Assembly (NCBI GenBank): GCA_021372635.1
Contig: JAJFUA010000011.1
Location: 1-34,743 of the forward strand
Direction of reading: 5' to 3'
Source: Desulfobacteraceae bacterium
GTDB taxonomy: Bacteria; Desulfobacterota; Syntrophobacteria; Syntrophobacterales; Syntrophobacteraceae
DNA length: 34,743 nt
Below, piece by piece: positions 11,317 through 33,167 of the stretch (positions are counted from its first letter, which is position 1; each line of letters begins with the position of its first letter). A program made the translations under genes and the position numbers. Below the pieces are notes generated by a model. It was given only the letters and a program-made list of their open reading frames with translations, was not told the DNA's origin and ran no database searches.

Positions 11317-11913
11317 TCAATCCGTTTTGCTGACGACCGTCATCTCTTCCTGGGCATGCTCGCTGACGCGGCCGGCGAGATGGGAACTGTACCGTCTGAG
11401 CATCCACAATTCGGGGATGATTTCAGATATGAGCTGCCCGTCGTCGAAAACCCTCACGATGGAGCTTTCGGAAACCACCACCGCCACGGCGCTCGTCTGT
11501 TTCGTGATGGAAGCGGCCGCCATGTGCCTGCTGCCGAGTCCGAGCGGAAGCTGAATCCCCTCGGAAAAGGCGTCAATGTACCGGCAGGCGGACAGGACCA
11601 CTCCTTCGTCGGAAACGACGAAGGCGCCATCGAGCTGAGCCAGTTCCTTCACCGTTTCCCTGACGTCGGGATCGTCGACGTGCTTCAGTTCGTCCGGGTG
11701 TCCATAGAGCGGATCCAGGATGAGACTCCTCGAATGCTTCATGACCTCTTCGGAATCCGAAACGACGAACAAGGTACCGATCTTCCGGCCTTCACGGCCT
11801 TCCCTCGCGATCTCCACGGCCAGTATGATGACCTGCTTCAGTATTTCCGGATTGATTCCGCGTTTTTCCGAACAAACCTCGCAGAACAGATCGTCGGGCA
11901 TTTTGAATTTCAT
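11317..11913 (-). CDS. Single-domain diadenylate cyclase (DisA_N/DAC domain)
   Basis: The 198-residue protein carries a C-terminal DAC domain with both nucleotide-binding signatures: LDGAFVVSDEG (DGA at 95-97) and LGLGSRHMAAASIT (GSRH at 127-130). Such domains condense two ATP into c-di-AMP, a second messenger linked to potassium, osmotic and cell wall control. The N-terminal 90 residues (with CEVCSEKRG near the start and a helix IIILAVEIAREGREGRKIG) replace the membrane helices of CdaA and the DNA-binding part of DisA. ATG 11913 has GGAGGG 6 bases upstream; the longer frame to 12099 is low-quality sequence. Activity depends on dimer packing that cannot be judged here. Confidence 0.85.
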   Translation of the reverse strand: MKFKMPDDLFCEVCSEKRGINPEILKQVIILAVEIAREGREGRKIGTLFVVSDSEEVMKHSRSLILDPLYGHPDELKHVDDPDVRETVKELAQLDGAFVVSDEGVVLSACRYIDAFSEGIQLPLGLGSRHMAAASITKQTSAVAVVVSESSIVRVFDDGQLISEIIPELWMLRRYSSHLAGRVSEHAQEEMTVVSKTD

Positions 11914-12424
11914 AATTTCCCTCCGGTCCCTGCCGCAGAATGTCTTCACGGAAAGCAGGATGGTTCGCCTGTGCAAAGGAATGACGAAACGAGAGGAATC
12001 GAGGCACTCGTCCTGGCGGCATGCGATACGCGATGCCCCCCAGGCGTCACGCAAGCTCAGTGGACAACGTAGTGGAGGCATCACGCGGCGATCAGCCACC
12101 GCCTTCGATCTCCTGGATTTGCCTGACTGTAAAACTGCTTACCTGAAACATAAGGCCGTCCCGCACCATGTCAACCGCAGGAGACGGCATGCAGCCCCGC
12201 CGGGGCATGGATGAACCCGCATGCGGCAGGGAATCGAACTTGCATCTGCCCCGCGAACGGAGCGGAAATACTCCGGAAGAGGGACGAAGAGCGCACCATG
12301 GCGAGCATGAGCGCCCGCTCCGTTCCCTTCCGCCCCGTCCGGGAACGCCTCTTCGATACATCCGCCTGACCCTGAGCGAATACGGCGGCCACTTCGGAAC
12401 CTCAACCGCGGCGGATTCGCAATC
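11914..12424. other. 511-base gap with no supported gene
   Basis: This stretch lies between two minus-strand genes, the MEMO protein gene and the cyclase gene. Open frames in it are proline- and arginine-rich and match nothing. A patch at 12230-12241 resembles a tRNA T-loop on the minus strand, but the flanking arms do not pair. A promoter for the cyclase gene is expected here, but I cannot assign one. Confidence 0.4.
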
Positions 12425-13663
12425 CTATTTCTTCGAACTGCCGTCGTCCCCGTCGTAAAACGCCATGCTCGCAAAGGTGACGAAGGAACGGTCCTCGCCC
12501 ACAATGGCATAGGAATGCTTCAGTGTCCTGCCGAGCGCCCTCCCCTCCAGGGCACGGGAAAACACGTAAAGCGGCGCCGCACCGCATACGCGCCGGCGGT
12601 TGCGCTCACGCAGGAGGATTTCCATGAACCCCCCGGAATCGCACCTTTCAAGGGTCTCCAGCAGTCCGCGGTCCGCCGCCATGTGTTCGATCAGCAGGGA
12701 ACTGTCGGGAGACGACCGGTCTCCGTAGCGCGGACCGATATGAGCCAGATCCACGCTGGCGAGGAACCCCACGCTTCCCCTCCTGGCGGCGATGTCCCGC
12801 AGCAGCGCGACGGTCTCTTCGATGTACCCCGCGTCGGAATCCCGTTCTTCCATGGAAAAGGAACACAACAGCGGCACGATGCGGGCATCGGGCTGAAAAT
12901 ACGACAGGAATACCGTCTGGAACTCGATTACGTGCTCCCTCTGGTGGTTGTATTCCGAAGCGAGGAAATCGCGGGGAGCGGATGCCCTGAATTCCTCGCA
13001 GAACTCCCGGTCGCAGGCAAGCGTGCCCAAAGGGGTTTCGAAATCCTTGACCGTCAGCGCAAAGCCGTTCTCCACCGGCTCATGCCCGGTGCCCAGGATC
13101 ACCCAGGTCTTCGGCAGAACGGATTCACCGAGCGCCTTATAGGCACAGGCGTAGCACGAACCTCCCGCACCGAGGTCGATATGGGGGGCGACCAGACCGA
13201 GCAGACGGCGGCCGTCGCCGTGCGTCTCCGGCAGTCCGGGACCTCCCTTCTTTTCGGAAAAGAAATCCTCGATGAGGTTGCGCAGCTCGTCGGCTTTGCC
13301 TGGATAGGATTTCCCTGCATGGCGCATCCTGCGGACGGGATCGTTCATAAAGCGGGCGACCGCGCGGGCAGCGGCATCGTAGAACCGTTCGTTCTCGAGC
13401 AGCAGGTGCTCGTCCATCAGCGCCACAACGTCCTCCATGTCCTGCATCCGGAGCAGTTGCCCCGTTTTTCGCATGACCAGTTCCTGGAGGTCCCGCAGCG
13501 AGTTCTCGCCGTTCATGTGCATCAACAACGCGGCGGCTATCGGCGTGAACAGCAGGGGCTCCTCGTCGAGTCCCATCTGATCCCGAACCAGTATCAGCTG
13601 CCGGCCCTCGTGCCGCACGGGAAAAACCTCTACACCATAGCGTACTTTCGGATGACCCGACAT
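12425..13663 (-). CDS. MEMO-family protein (AmmeMemoRadiSam system protein B type) with an extra N-terminal domain
   Basis: The 412-residue protein has a C-terminal MEMO domain (about 155-410). Motifs are APHIDLGAGG (His161), ILGTGHEP, EHVIEFQTVFL, SVDLAHIGPRYGD (Asp305, His308) and CGAAPLYVF. MEMO proteins share the fold of iron-dependent extradiol dioxygenases, and bacterial ones often occur with a radical SAM and an AMMECR1 protein. The N-terminal 95 residues form a separate unit: a beta part (YGVEVFPVRHEGRQLILVRD), then helices ending in DMEDVVALMDEHLLLEN. That pattern resembles PqqD-like winged helices. ATG 13663 has GAGAGG upstream and beats GTG 13669. No AMMECR1 gene and no adjacent radical SAM gene are present. 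Its substrate is unknown. Confidence 0.82.
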   Translation of the reverse strand: MSGHPKVRYGVEVFPVRHEGRQLILVRDQMGLDEEPLLFTPIAAALLMHMNGENSLRDLQELVMRKTGQLLRMQDMEDVVALMDEHLLLENERFYDAAARAVARFMNDPVRRMRHAGKSYPGKADELRNLIEDFFSEKKGGPGLPETHGDGRRLLGLVAPHIDLGAGGSCYACAYKALGESVLPKTWVILGTGHEPVENGFALTVKDFETPLGTLACDREFCEEFRASAPRDFLASEYNHQREHVIEFQTVFLSYFQPDARIVPLLCSFSMEERDSDAGYIEETVALLRDIAARRGSVGFLASVDLAHIGPRYGDRSSPDSSLLIEHMAADRGLLETLERCDSGGFMEILLRERNRRRVCGAAPLYVFSRALEGRALGRTLKHSYAIVGEDRSFVTFASMAFYDGDDGSSKK

Positions 13664-13824: not shown

Positions 13825-14460
13825 TCAGGGTGCGCGGAGATCCCTGCTGGAGTATATGCCGTCGCCAATCGCGGAAACCGCGTACTCCAGGGCGAGCCTG
13901 CCCGCTTCCAGCGGGGTGGACGTGGCGTATGCGCCGATTTCCGACTCGCCGTGCCCCACGAGCTTCGTCACCTTGCTTTCGAGGGTCGAGAAGAACTCCA
14001 CCTGGAGATCGACGTCGAAGCCGTGCTTATACCGCCTGTGCCACGCTTCCACCCTGACGAAGCGTGGCACGGCCACCAGTTCGAAATCCCGATACCCTCC
14101 TCCCGCCTCCCTGTACGCCGAGACCCTGTCCATCGCCTCGGCTTCGCTCCCGGTCACATCGAGGGCCACTCGGCTGTAGTACCTGCCAAGGAGCGCCCTG
14201 AGCTGATCCGTCGCTTCCACGCCGAACCGGTGCCGGACTTCCCCCTCTTCCCGGAAGCTCACGTAGACGAAACGTTCGAAAGATTCGGGAACCAGGAGCA
14301 GAACACGCACCGGAACCGGTGCCGCAGGCGCCGGACTGACGGGCGGAGGCACAAAGGGAGACGCCGTACAGGACGCCACCCAGAACACGACGCCCAGGCA
14401 AAGCAGTTTTCCGAAGGCGCCCGCCGAAGACCTGGAAAAATACTTTATGAAACTGGCCAT
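13825..14460 (-). CDS. Uncharacterised lipoprotein
   Basis: I do not recognise the family. The 211-residue protein has a lipoprotein signal peptide ending in WVASC (lipid Cys at about residue 31), a short proline/alanine linker (PFVPPPVSPAPAAPVPV), then an alpha/beta domain. It contains RVLLLVPESFERFVYV, a helix DQLRALLGRYYSRVAL, and several strands (DFELVAVPRFVRVEA, GFDVDLQVEFF). The layout resembles small periplasmic lipoproteins of the outer membrane. ATG 14460 is chosen over the longer frame (14589) because GGGGAG lies 6 bases upstream and it gives a proper signal peptide. It is upstream of, and in line with, the MEMO gene (161-base gap), so joint transcription is possible but unproven. 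Confidence 0.72.
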   Translation of the reverse strand: MASFIKYFSRSSAGAFGKLLCLGVVFWVASCTASPFVPPPVSPAPAAPVPVRVLLLVPESFERFVYVSFREEGEVRHRFGVEATDQLRALLGRYYSRVALDVTGSEAEAMDRVSAYREAGGGYRDFELVAVPRFVRVEAWHRRYKHGFDVDLQVEFFSTLESKVTKLVGHGESEIGAYATSTPLEAGRLALEYAVSAIGDGIYSSRDLRAP

Positions 14461-14704
14461 ACCATTCTCCCCTTTCGCTCCGCACCCCGCGTCGAGAGGC
14501 GCGAACCCGTTCATGAAGCGCAAACCGTGCGGGAATGCCGTCCGCCGCAAAACAAGGGACCGCTTATCACACTCTTTCAGGATAATCACTTTGGACAGTC
14601 ATGAAAAAAACAGGGGAACGCTCTCGGGAGGGCCGCATGCAAAAAAGATTTGCCCTCAAATGGCGGAGGAAGGAATCCAGCCCGGGGCAACCGATCGGGG
14701 CACA

Positions 14705-28690: not shown

Positions 28691-28775
28691 CAAATCGGAG
28701 TGGGAAAGGAAGTTTTCATTCTCCCGGCATGTTATTGGTTTGATTTTGCAGAAAGAACAGGAGGGATCGACAGCA

Positions 28776-30212
28776 ATGGCAAATCCCGTCACGCAGGAAC
28801 TCCTGCGCCGGCTCCCGAGCGTGGATGCCCTGCTCCAGGCGAAAGCGGTCCAGGAGGCGCTGGCCGTCCAGCCGCGCAGGCTTGTTCTCGAAAGCATCCG
28901 GCAGGTGCTCGATGCGTTGCGAAAACGCATTCTGGAAAACCCTGAAAACGCGGCCCACGAGTCCGACCTGGATCCGCAACTCCTCGTCGGGCGAATCCTC
29001 GAACGCCTGGAGTCCCTCGGCAGCCATACTTTGATGCCCGTCGTCAACGCAACGGGCATCGTCGTTCACACCAATCTCGGCCGGTCCCTTCTCGCTGCGG
29101 AGGCCATGGAGCGTCTGCAGCTGCTGTGCGCGGGGTACAACAATCTCGAGTACGACCTGGGAGAAGGCCGAAGAGGCTCCCGCTACGTCCATGCGGAGGC
29201 CATCCTGTGCGAACTCACGGGGGCCAAAGCCGCCCTGGTGGTCAACAACAACGCGGCCGCCGTGCTGCTGGTTCTAAATACCCTGGCCAACGGCCGCGAA
29301 GTGGTGGTTTCCCGCGGGCAACTCGTGGAAATCGGCGGTTCCTTCCGAATACCCGACGTCATGCGGAGCAGCGGGGCCGTCCTGAAGGAGGTGGGAACGA
29401 CCAACCGCACGCACCCAAAGGACTACGAAGCGGGAATCTGCGGGGATACGGCGCTGCTCATGAAAGTCCACACCAGCAACTATAGGATCGTGGGCTTCAC
29501 CACCGGGGTCGGCATGGAGGAGATGGCGGCCATCGCTCACAGGCACGGGCTCCCCGCCATTGAGGATCTTGGAAGCGGGTCGTTCGTGGACCTTTCGCCC
29601 TTCGGCCTGAAGGGCGAGCCGACCGTTCAGGACTCCGTCCGCGCCGGCGCCGACGCGGTGACCTTCAGCGGAGACAAGCTCCTGGGCGGGCCACAGGCCG
29701 GGATCATCGTGGGTGCCAGGGAGATCGTCGACCGCTGCAAGCAGAACCCCCTCACCCGGGCACTGCGCGTGGACAAGATGACCCTCGCGGCACTCGAGGC
29801 CACCCTGCGGCTCTACCGGGACGAACGTGGAGCGATCCGGCAGATCCCGACGCTGCGTATGCTCGCCGCGACTCCCACGGAACTCGAAGAGCGCGCCCGT
29901 TCCCTCGCTTCACAGATTCAGCAGGCGGACAGGGATCGCCTGCTCGACGTGCAGGTGCTTCCCGGATTTTCTCAGGTAGGTGGCGGGGCGCTCCCGGAAC
30001 AGGATATCGAAACGAGGGTGGTCGCCGTTCGGTCGGAGTCGATCGGTACGCAGAAAATCGAGGCGGCGCTGCGGTCCAACACGCCGCCCGTGATCGGGCG
30101 CATCGAGTTCGACCGCTGCCTGCTGGACGTTCGCACGATACAGCCGGACGAATTCGTCGCCATTCGGGAGGCCTTCGAGCGGATGCTCGCCGGAACGGCG
30201 GGGTCCCGGTGA
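28776..30212 (+). CDS. selA: L-seryl-tRNA(Sec) selenium transferase (selenocysteine synthase)
   Basis: The 478-residue protein is a full-length SelA. Motifs include PVVNATGIVVHTNLGRSLL, EYDLGEGRRGSRY, ALVVNNNAAAVLL and VGTTNRTHPKDYE; Lys301 in TFSGDKLLGGPQAG carries PLP. It turns Ser-tRNA(Sec) into Sec-tRNA(Sec) with selenophosphate. ATG 28776 is preferred to the longer frame (28740); GGAGGG lies 10 bases upstream. Neither selB nor a selC tRNA is present here, so the rest of the pathway is elsewhere. It converges with the J-domain gene, leaving 12 bases between stops. Confidence 0.96.
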   Translation: MANPVTQELLRRLPSVDALLQAKAVQEALAVQPRRLVLESIRQVLDALRKRILENPENAAHESDLDPQLLVGRILERLESLGSHTLMPVVNATGIVVHTNLGRSLLAAEAMERLQLLCAGYNNLEYDLGEGRRGSRYVHAEAILCELTGAKAALVVNNNAAAVLLVLNTLANGREVVVSRGQLVEIGGSFRIPDVMRSSGAVLKEVGTTNRTHPKDYEAGICGDTALLMKVHTSNYRIVGFTTGVGMEEMAAIAHRHGLPAIEDLGSGSFVDLSPFGLKGEPTVQDSVRAGADAVTFSGDKLLGGPQAGIIVGAREIVDRCKQNPLTRALRVDKMTLAALEATLRLYRDERGAIRQIPTLRMLAATPTELEERARSLASQIQQADRDRLLDVQVLPGFSQVGGGALPEQDIETRVVAVRSESIGTQKIEAALRSNTPPVIGRIEFDRCLLDVRTIQPDEFVAIREAFERMLAGTAGSR

Positions 30213-31354: not shown

Positions 31355-33109
31355 TCAGGGCGTGCAGGCCCCGCAGCGCCGGCAGTTTTCCTCGGGGCGG
31401 CACGGAGGGCTGCTGCGTCCTTCGAGGGAGCGCATGTATTCGTCCCAGAGATAACTTCTCGACGTTCCGCACTCGATGATTTCCCACGGGAAGAGTTCAT
31501 CCCGGTCCCGCTCCCGCATGACCCAGAAGTCGGGATTGAACGGCACGGATTTCAGCGCCTGTGTCCAGGAAAGGCCGCCGAGCGCGACTTTTTCCAGGAA
31601 GGACCCGGCGCGCCGGTCCCCCCTGGCCAGCAGAGCCTGGACGTACGCCCATTTCGGCAGATCGAAGTGCACCCTGACGTTGGGCACCTTCCGGAGCGCC
31701 CTTTGAATCCGGCGGGCCCGTTCCTTCAGTTCCACTACCCCCGCGAACCCAGACCACTGGAAAGGGGTAAACGGTTTCGGCACGAACGAATTGACGCTTA
31801 GAGTGATGGTCCCCAGGCGCCGCAACCCACGGCTCACCTTGAGCACGTGGTGCTTGATCCCCTTGGCCAGTTCGACGACGGCGTCCAGATCTTCATTCGT
31901 CTCCGTCGGAAGACCGATCATGAAATAGAGCTTCAGGTGCAGAATCCCCCTCTCCGTAAGGCGCTCCACAGCCGCATAGATCTGCTCGACTTCCAGGTTC
32001 TTGTTGATTGCGCGCCGCAGCCGGTCCGACCCCGCTTCGGGGGCAATAGCGACGGATTGATGCCGGCTCGCCTCGAGGGTGGACACGATTCCGGGAGTGA
32101 TCGTATCGGCCCGCAGGGAGGAGAAGGAGAGGGATGCCCCCCGGTCGACAAGAGCGTCACAGAGGGCGGAAATCTCGGGATGGTCCGAGACGGCCGCGCT
32201 GACCAGCCCGATCCGGGAATGGCCCTCCAGGCGACCTCCCGCGTGCAGCAGCAGCTTATCGGCGGCATGATACCTGACCGGCCGGTAGACGAAACCGGCG
32301 GCGCAGAAGCGGCATCCTCTCCCGCATCCCCTCCCGATCTCGACGAGTTCCACATTGCTGAATTCCGTATTGGGAGTGAGGATCACCGTCTGGCAGGGAT
32401 TGTGCCGGGAGAGGTCCGCGCGGCGATAAACCACCCGCTCCGGCACGCGCGCTCCGGCACGCGGTTCGATGGATTCCACCTGCCCGTCGGACCGATAGTT
32501 CACACGGTACAGAGAGGGGACGTAGATACCGGGGACTTCGCGGGCCAGGGTTTCGAGCAACTCCGCGCGGGGAGGATCGTCTTCCCCCGTCCTGCGGAAG
32601 GCTTCCAGGAACTCGGGAACCAGGTCTTCCCCCTCTCCGATGAACAGGAAATCCAGGAAATCGGCCAGAGGTTCGGGATTCAGAAAGACGGCCACCCCCC
32701 CGGCGGCCACCAGCGGGTGGGATCGGTCCCTCGCCTCCGCCCGGGGAGGAATCCCCGCGAGGTGCAGCATTTCAATGGCGTGCGGATAGTCGTTTTCGAA
32801 GGGGATGGAAAAGGCGATCAGGTCGAATTCCCTCAAGGATCTCTGCGATTCCAGGGATACCAGTCTGCCGGGAGATTGCCCGAGGGCCGCCATGTCTTCC
32901 GGTTCGGGATAGAAGACCCTTTCGCAGACGACATCCCCGGGAAGATTCAAAAGGCTGTAGACCGACTGGAACCCCAGGTTGGACATACCCACCGAATAGC
33001 GGTTGGGAAATGCGAGAGCAATGCGAAGCTTTCCACTCCAATCCTTTCGGATGGTCCCTTCTTCCTCCACCAGCCACTGCTGTCTTTTTTGCCTGTGATT
33101 TTTGAGCAT
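31355..33109 (-). CDS. B12-binding-domain radical SAM protein (TIGR03960-like)
   Basis: The 584-residue protein starts with a cobalamin-binding-like domain (RIALAFPNRYSVGMSNLGFQ, then VCERVFYPEPEDM). A radical SAM core follows, with the cluster motif CGRGCRFC (CxxxCxxC, about 260-267) in EIGRGCGRGCRFCAAGFVYRP-like context. The C-terminus ends in a second Cys cluster, C-x5-C-x2-C-x2-C, that could bind another iron-sulfur centre or zinc. Proteins of this family are often found fused or adjacent to a DUF2344 domain, which is absent here. The reaction is unknown. ATG 33109 has no clear ribosome-binding site; GTG 33154 is an alternative. Confidence 0.82.
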   Translation of the reverse strand: MLKNHRQKRQQWLVEEEGTIRKDWSGKLRIALAFPNRYSVGMSNLGFQSVYSLLNLPGDVVCERVFYPEPEDMAALGQSPGRLVSLESQRSLREFDLIAFSIPFENDYPHAIEMLHLAGIPPRAEARDRSHPLVAAGGVAVFLNPEPLADFLDFLFIGEGEDLVPEFLEAFRRTGEDDPPRAELLETLAREVPGIYVPSLYRVNYRSDGQVESIEPRAGARVPERVVYRRADLSRHNPCQTVILTPNTEFSNVELVEIGRGCGRGCRFCAAGFVYRPVRYHAADKLLLHAGGRLEGHSRIGLVSAAVSDHPEISALCDALVDRGASLSFSSLRADTITPGIVSTLEASRHQSVAIAPEAGSDRLRRAINKNLEVEQIYAAVERLTERGILHLKLYFMIGLPTETNEDLDAVVELAKGIKHHVLKVSRGLRRLGTITLSVNSFVPKPFTPFQWSGFAGVVELKERARRIQRALRKVPNVRVHFDLPKWAYVQALLARGDRRAGSFLEKVALGGLSWTQALKSVPFNPDFWVMRERDRDELFPWEIIECGTSRSYLWDEYMRSLEGRSSPPCRPEENCRRCGACTP

Positions 33110-33167
33110 GCCGGGAAAAACGCCGCCCTCTGACCGTTGAGTTGATTTCACCACCGCAGAAACACGT

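Follow-up and report, generated by a model that had tools for sequence, protein, structure and literature searches.

We describe here a protein, encoded in the 34,743-nucleotide stretch of DNA analysed as a whole (the window), in which a predicted PqqD/RRE-type winged helix and a MEMO domain are connected through a helix. The protein is a member of an old and widespread single-branch subfamily, referred to below as RRE-MEMO. Somewhat short of even confidence, we propose that the protein is a two-domain metalloenzyme, in which the N-terminal domain would dock a peptide or protein encoded elsewhere and the MEMO site would modify it.

Overall architecture of the RRE-MEMO protein

The open reading frame is real, and runs on the minus strand from 13663 to 12425 of the window. 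Its start is the ATG at 13663, where the homologs begin as well, and not an upstream GTG. The gene and its domains are arranged as follows:

12425-13663, minus strand: whole gene, RRE-MEMO fusion protein (P0002), 412 aa
13391-13663, minus strand: residues 1-91, predicted PqqD/RRE-type winged helix (AF2 model, fold search, profile comparison)
13343-13390, minus strand: residues 92-107, predicted linker helix to the MEMO domain (AF2 models)
12449-13339, minus strand: residues 109-405, MEMO domain, class III extradiol dioxygenase fold (Pfam/NCBIfam; VIA-align against human MEMO1)

The Pfam model PF01875 (MEMO) matches residues 113-400 with an E-value of 7.2e-41 and 140.6 bits against a cut-off of 27, and the NCBIfam model TIGR04336 (AmmeMemoRadiSam system protein B) gives 109.5 bits against a cut-off of 26, while residues 1-112 have no Pfam match. 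Superposition against human MEMO1 (3bcz) by VIA-align revealed a Z of 31.2 and an rmsd of 2.5 over 270 aligned residues. Human MEMO1 aligns from residue 107 only, in agreement with the initial annotation, which had placed the first 95 residues outside the MEMO fold. The AF2 model of the full chain has a pLDDT of 95.8 and a pTM of 0.92. Judged from this whole-protein pTM, the RRE-type and MEMO domains likely hold a fixed position relative to each other.

Structure and kinship of the N-terminal domain

The AF2 model of residues 1-112, built with an alignment of 71 sequences, has a pLDDT of 93.4. It consists of a hairpin (strands 11-18 and 21-28), a strand at 37-39 and helices at 41-48, 56-67 and 73-85, followed by the linker helix. 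The third strand is only three residues long in this model (RRE as defined in PMC12710340). A Foldseek search with the domain returned the TbiB1 RRE at the top (E 0.024) and PqqD next (E 0.031), none of the matches being below 0.001. Alignment by VIA-align gave the highest Z for the LarB1 RRE with its leader peptide (Z 10.1, rmsd 3.1, 83 aligned), followed among the RRE and PqqD structures by the TbiB1 RRE, also solved with a leader peptide (Z 9.9, rmsd 3.4, 85 aligned), TigE (Z 9.4, rmsd 3.8, 102 aligned) and PqqD (Z 8.9, rmsd 2.7, 85 aligned); MccB gave Z 8.0, rmsd 2.6 and 76 aligned. Rickettsia protein lysine methyltransferases (Z 9.8), MINA53 (Z 9.3) and the small-molecule carbamoyltransferases GdmN (Z 9.0) and NovN (Z 8.1) are matched as well, and the winged helices of NO66/MINA53 are among the structural matches. 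Since the scores of GdmN/NovN, the methyltransferases and MINA53 are also high, a peptide substrate cannot be concluded from the fold by itself.

The sequence of the window protein alone (residues 1-101) has no PF05402 match, and no PDB sequence was matched significantly by the N-domain profile (best E 0.078; PqqD 5sxy at E 1.1), so that structural and profile-profile comparisons were needed. The N-domain profile aligned by hhalign to that of 37 PqqD-type proteins with a score of 41.0 over residues 35-90. In the controls, 200 column shuffles yielded a mean of 10.8 and a maximum of 19.4, the reversed alignment scored 21.0 and stretches of the MEMO domain scored at most 21.3. When the 71 members were scanned singly, Pfam PqqD matched 8 (best E 6.5e-5) and HTH_47 an equal number (best E 0.035), PqqD having the lowest E-value among their Pfam matches. 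The corresponding NCBIfam scan found PQQ_PqqD in 5 of the 71 and the RiPP protein ApyI in one.

Together, the model and the profile comparisons show residues 1-91 to be a separate domain, predicted to be a winged helix of the PqqD/RRE type and joined by a helix to the MEMO domain. The initial annotation had, by eye, likened the order of elements here, which opens with a beta hairpin, to PqqD-type winged helices. This likeness is borne out by the AF2 model, the structural matches, the hhalign score relative to the shuffles and the PqqD hits in individual members, and the same order of elements is seen in the model.

A winged helix could also mean that the N-terminal domain binds DNA and that the protein is a metal-sensing regulator. 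The domain does match the Fur-type regulators Fur and MUR weakly (Z 5.3 and 5.9), but the RRE and PqqD matches are clearly better (Z 8-10) and PqqD leads the Pfam matches of the members, which makes a regulator very improbable.

Compared with known systems, the domain resembles PqqD (PF05402; 5sxy, 3g2b) in fold and profile, but is fused and by itself escapes the PqqD model. It shares the fold and the order of elements with the RREs of LarB1 and TbiB1 (6jx3, 5v1v), TigE (8vpo) and TglHI (8hi7); in TglHI an RRE-like part is, according to the entry title, paired with an iron enzyme. Unlike with these, no adjoining precursor, protease or exporter was found for the window gene, and its enzyme domain is MEMO.

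Spread and ancestry of the fusion

A search of 198 genomes of the same phylum, in which family members were taken at an E-value of 1e-20 or better, found the RRE-MEMO protein in 50 genomes, and in each of the 50 the match begins at residue 17 or before. The initial annotation had asked whether the N-terminal unit always travels with the MEMO domain, and among these members it does; this rests on the 198-genome search and not on the 80 named loci described below, which were ranked by the whole protein and so say nothing about how often the N-terminal domain is absent. Averaged over alignment columns, conservation comes to 0.467 in residues 1-91 and 0.464 in the MEMO domain. With the N-terminal domain as conserved as the MEMO domain, it is no extension in decay.

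Among 84,980 species genomes, a scan gave at least 593 stretches, at least 587 of which are relatives. The best 80 of the at least 587 relatives span the protein nearly end to end, bar one that a contig end truncates. Going by the organism names in the titles, 19 phyla are represented among these best 80, and 11 of the 80 bear no label; such names may be wrong for metagenome bins. An unrooted tree was built from 87 MEMO domains, those of 51 of the 119 family members and of 36 other MEMO proteins. In it the 51 fused proteins make up one side of a branch with 100/100 support, and across it lie 27 labelled stand-alone and 9 AMMECR1-fused MEMO proteins. Alignment A1 omits L051, which has unknown bases in its N-terminus, and alignments A2 and A3 omit 10 of the 80 named loci (L092, L093, L097, L099, L101, L108, L125, L146, L157 and L159), mostly near-copies, L093 being cut by a contig end. 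The scan and the tree show the fusion to be an old subfamily on a single branch.

A six-frame search of the 198 genomes with the N-domain profile alone recovered the same 50 genomes and four weak matches. One of these is a 91-residue protein passing PF05402. The other three sit in long proteins, which are M50 peptidase-like: L274 (1546-3777, plus strand), L275 (minus strand) and L277 (903-2816, plus strand). They are the nearest matches of the N-domain outside the family in these genomes, and the N-domain-like part is N-terminal in L274 and L275 and internal in L277. The match to the M50 peptidase family, whose cut-off is 27.2 bits, is weak in both L274 (26.7 bits) and L277 (27.5 bits), L274 also matches HlyD models below their cut-offs, and L275 passes PF05402 and resembles L274 by eye. 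In the profile alignment, the PxLR and D positions of the N-domain hairpin are common to L274 and L275. The organism's own genome was found to hold no PqqD match elsewhere.

The main alternative to a docking function is that the RRE/PqqD fold does not dock a peptide at all, but packs, dimerises or serves as a lid on the MEMO site, with a small molecule as the substrate. In GdmN and NovN the RRE-like fold belongs to enzymes acting on small molecules, and in NO66/MINA53 and PKMT it may have a packing role. The helix at 73-85 and the strand at 37-39, which hold the peptide in RREs, have conservation values of 0.42 and 0.44 versus 0.60 for the turn at 49-55. Conservation in the domain peaks at the hairpin ends and the DG turn and not in these groove elements, and no peptide gene was found near the gene (see below), both of which favour this alternative. 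On the other hand, the closest structures are leader-bound RREs, and the nearest sequence relatives outside the family, a PqqD protein and the M50/HlyD-type proteins, are peptide handlers by their look. We regard a packing or lid function as a considerable possibility, if a somewhat doubtful one.

Metal site and subfamily signatures

In human MEMO1, His49, His81 and Cys244 are the iron ligands, and Asp189 and His192 lie near the metal but are not bound to it (PMC11081632). The account given there describes an enzymatic reaction of human MEMO1 as not proven, and the literature searched on MEMO proteins, human MEMO1 included, yielded no reported reaction. The corresponding residues of the window protein, with roles taken from PMC11081632, and two signatures of the subfamily are listed below:

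13181-13183, minus strand: His161, predicted metal ligand (human His49), in 119/119 members and 36/36 other MEMO proteins
13082-13084, minus strand: His194, predicted metal ligand (human His81, motif ILGxxH), 119/119 and 36/36
12584-12586, minus strand: Cys360, predicted metal ligand (human Cys244), Asp in 4/119 members
12749-12751, minus strand: Asp305, near the metal (human Asp189), 119/119 and 36/36
12740-12742, minus strand: His308, near the metal (human His192), 119/119 and 36/36
13175-13180, minus strand: Ile162-Asp163, signature beside the ligand, 115 and 113 of 119 versus A-G in 36/36 other MEMO proteins
13046-13048, minus strand: Lys206, signature, 115/119 versus G in 29/36 other MEMO proteins

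His194 was paired with His81 by the ILGxxH motif, one place off the ungapped pairing by HMMER. His161, His194 and Cys360 are all present in the window protein, and the predicted 2-His-1-Cys metal site is intact. The initial annotation had rightly noted that His161, Asp305 and His308 are kept, but it missed the metal ligands His194 and Cys360. The four positions other than Cys360 are invariant throughout. Cys360 is replaced by Asp in L123, L133, L141 and L144, which are by title from Poribacteria (two), Abditibacteriota and Armatimonadota. This replacement restores the 2-His-1-carboxylate set of the extradiol dioxygenases, which argues that position 360 binds the metal in the RRE-MEMO family.

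Human MEMO1 (3bcz, 7kq8) shares the MEMO fold and the same three metal ligands, but lacks the N-terminal domain and has HAGY at and after the first ligand where the window protein has HID. In addition to the signatures listed above, the subfamily has Gly310 where other MEMO proteins mostly have Glu or His. Because Ile162-Asp163, Lys206 and Gly310 are unlike those of the other MEMO proteins examined, the substrate or the reaction likely differs from theirs.

Genomic neighbourhood and partners

Neighbourhoods were compared with genes called crudely as longest open reading frames, at 121 loci after 9 of 130 had been dropped as repeats. The neighbour scan covered 267 of 415 open reading frames, a first batch, nearly all from genomes of the same phylum, being left out. 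No neighbour recurs across lineages at the 121 loci; the commonest are a TPR protein, at 16 loci, and, at 10 loci each, UPF0047 and a protein of the histone-deacetylase fold.

A radical SAM partner, which the initial annotation had suggested looking for, was rejected, as Radical_SAM was found in 9 of 148 and 2 of 119 neighbour open reading frames (11 of 267), no neighbour is conserved, and two carrier genomes lack the AmmeMemo radical SAM protein (see below). A gene of the UPF0004/radical SAM methylthiotransferase type lies directly downstream of the MEMO gene at L088 (7713-9056), L094 (8296-9633) and similar loci. These loci form one cluster of 7 of the 121 with similar downstream neighbours, the two scanned members of which are of the UPF0004 methylthiotransferase type, and they rank with the nearest relatives of the window protein.

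In the window itself, the gene at 11317-12099 (minus strand), beside the RRE-MEMO gene, encodes a DisA_N/DAC domain of the c-di-AMP cyclase type (Pfam E 5.1e-20), with RHM by eye where the motif RHR is usual; a c-di-AMP cyclase gene does not recur beside the family at the 121 loci. A putative lipoprotein, so judged by eye and with no Pfam match, is encoded upstream at 13825-14589 (minus strand). Farther away are a radical SAM protein with Radical_SAM_N2 and a weak B12-binding match (31355-33154, minus strand, about 18 kb from the RRE-MEMO gene) and a protein that by eye looks like SelA, the selenocysteine synthase (28740-30212, plus strand). ARAGORN found no tRNA in the window.

The protein might be a variant B component of the AmmeMemoRadiSam system, working with AMMECR1 and the radical SAM protein. 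The model of protein B, TIGR04336, is indeed matched by 71 of the 71 members scanned, and the AmmeMemo radical SAM model TIGR04337 by 48 of the 50 carrier genomes. However, TIGR04337 is also found in 141 of the 148 non-carriers, so there is no association. In G121 and G149 (98% complete each) the RRE-MEMO protein is the only MEMO protein and both AMMECR1 and the AmmeMemo radical SAM protein are absent, and G019 (99% complete) lacks AMMECR1 and any other MEMO protein. Two other MEMO proteins are encoded in the organism's own genome, each in a frame that includes AMMECR1 as well. Neither AMMECR1 nor the radical SAM protein was found as a recurring neighbour at the 121 loci with 267 open reading frames scanned. 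Compared with protein B, stand-alone or AMMECR1-fused, the window protein has the same domain and passes the cut-off of its model, but RRE-MEMO sits on its separate, fully supported branch, has an RRE-type domain in place of AMMECR1, and occurs in genomes without the other parts of the system. A variant B component is thus quite unlikely, and we propose that RRE-MEMO needs neither AMMECR1 nor the AmmeMemo radical SAM protein to work.

Small open reading frames of 25-75 aa within 1.3 kb of the gene (2316 in number) were clustered in a search for a precursor. None is shared beyond close relatives; the largest groups cover at most 7 loci and look like chance frames of conserved DNA. A RiPP-type precursor, protease or exporter was not found beside the gene, and no such families lead the tally of the 267 of 415 neighbour open reading frames. 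RiPP enzymes usually sit in clusters. These observations, and the occurrence of the gene singly, lacking a conserved neighbour, in about 19 named phyla (among the best 80 of at least 587 relatives), count against a RiPP maturation enzyme with a precursor located at a distance from it. Such an enzyme is unlikely, even though the fold class fits it and RRE-Memo fusions stand among the RRE proteins in PMC12710340.

Proposed function and implications

We return to the proposal of a peptide- or protein-modifying metalloenzyme. By analogy with RREs, which dock leader peptides, the N-terminal domain may dock a peptide or protein substrate by an extended segment, and a nearby side chain would then undergo a redox modification at the MEMO site, which probably carries Fe(II). 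That no substrate, precursor open reading frame or conserved partner was found at the 121 loci and within 1.3 kb counts against docking. Because no precursor gene or partner lies beside the RRE-MEMO gene, the substrate would most likely be encoded elsewhere, and perhaps be a housekeeping protein or a small peptide supplied in trans. It is plausible that the substrate is a peptide or protein whose gene lies elsewhere; the initial annotation, too, had suggested a peptide or protein substrate.

The RRE-MEMO fusion is already on record in print. In a single sentence, Bregman et al. 2025 (mSystems; PMC12710340) name Memo-like proteins (PF01875) as one of the RRE fusions 'unprecedented in RiPPs'. 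That architecture, an RRE with PF01875, is very likely the same as that described here; the likeness is one of architecture only, and the sentence gives no spread, ancestry, site or context. Burroughs et al. 2019, reportedly a survey of the LigB/Memo superfamily in J Biol Chem, may already mention winged-helix fused MEMO proteins; it lay outside our literature search, in which a single branch or origin, the spread, the lack of partners and the active-site signature of RRE-MEMO were not found. PMC7159879 cites it on Memo-Ammecr1 systems.

A subfamily with its own domain of a substrate-docking type offers a possible bait for the substrate and would make MEMO chemistry easier to test, and the natural Cys-to-Asp exchange at a metal ligand is a clue to that chemistry. 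The family also presents an RRE-like domain long kept outside RiPP gene clusters. If the docking proposal is true, no MEMO subfamily before this one would have had a substrate class indicated by its anatomy. Possible, if on the unlikely side, is the wider picture of a trans-acting, cluster-free iron enzyme that modifies peptides or proteins in about 19 phyla, in which the RRE would serve general cell physiology and not natural-product synthesis.
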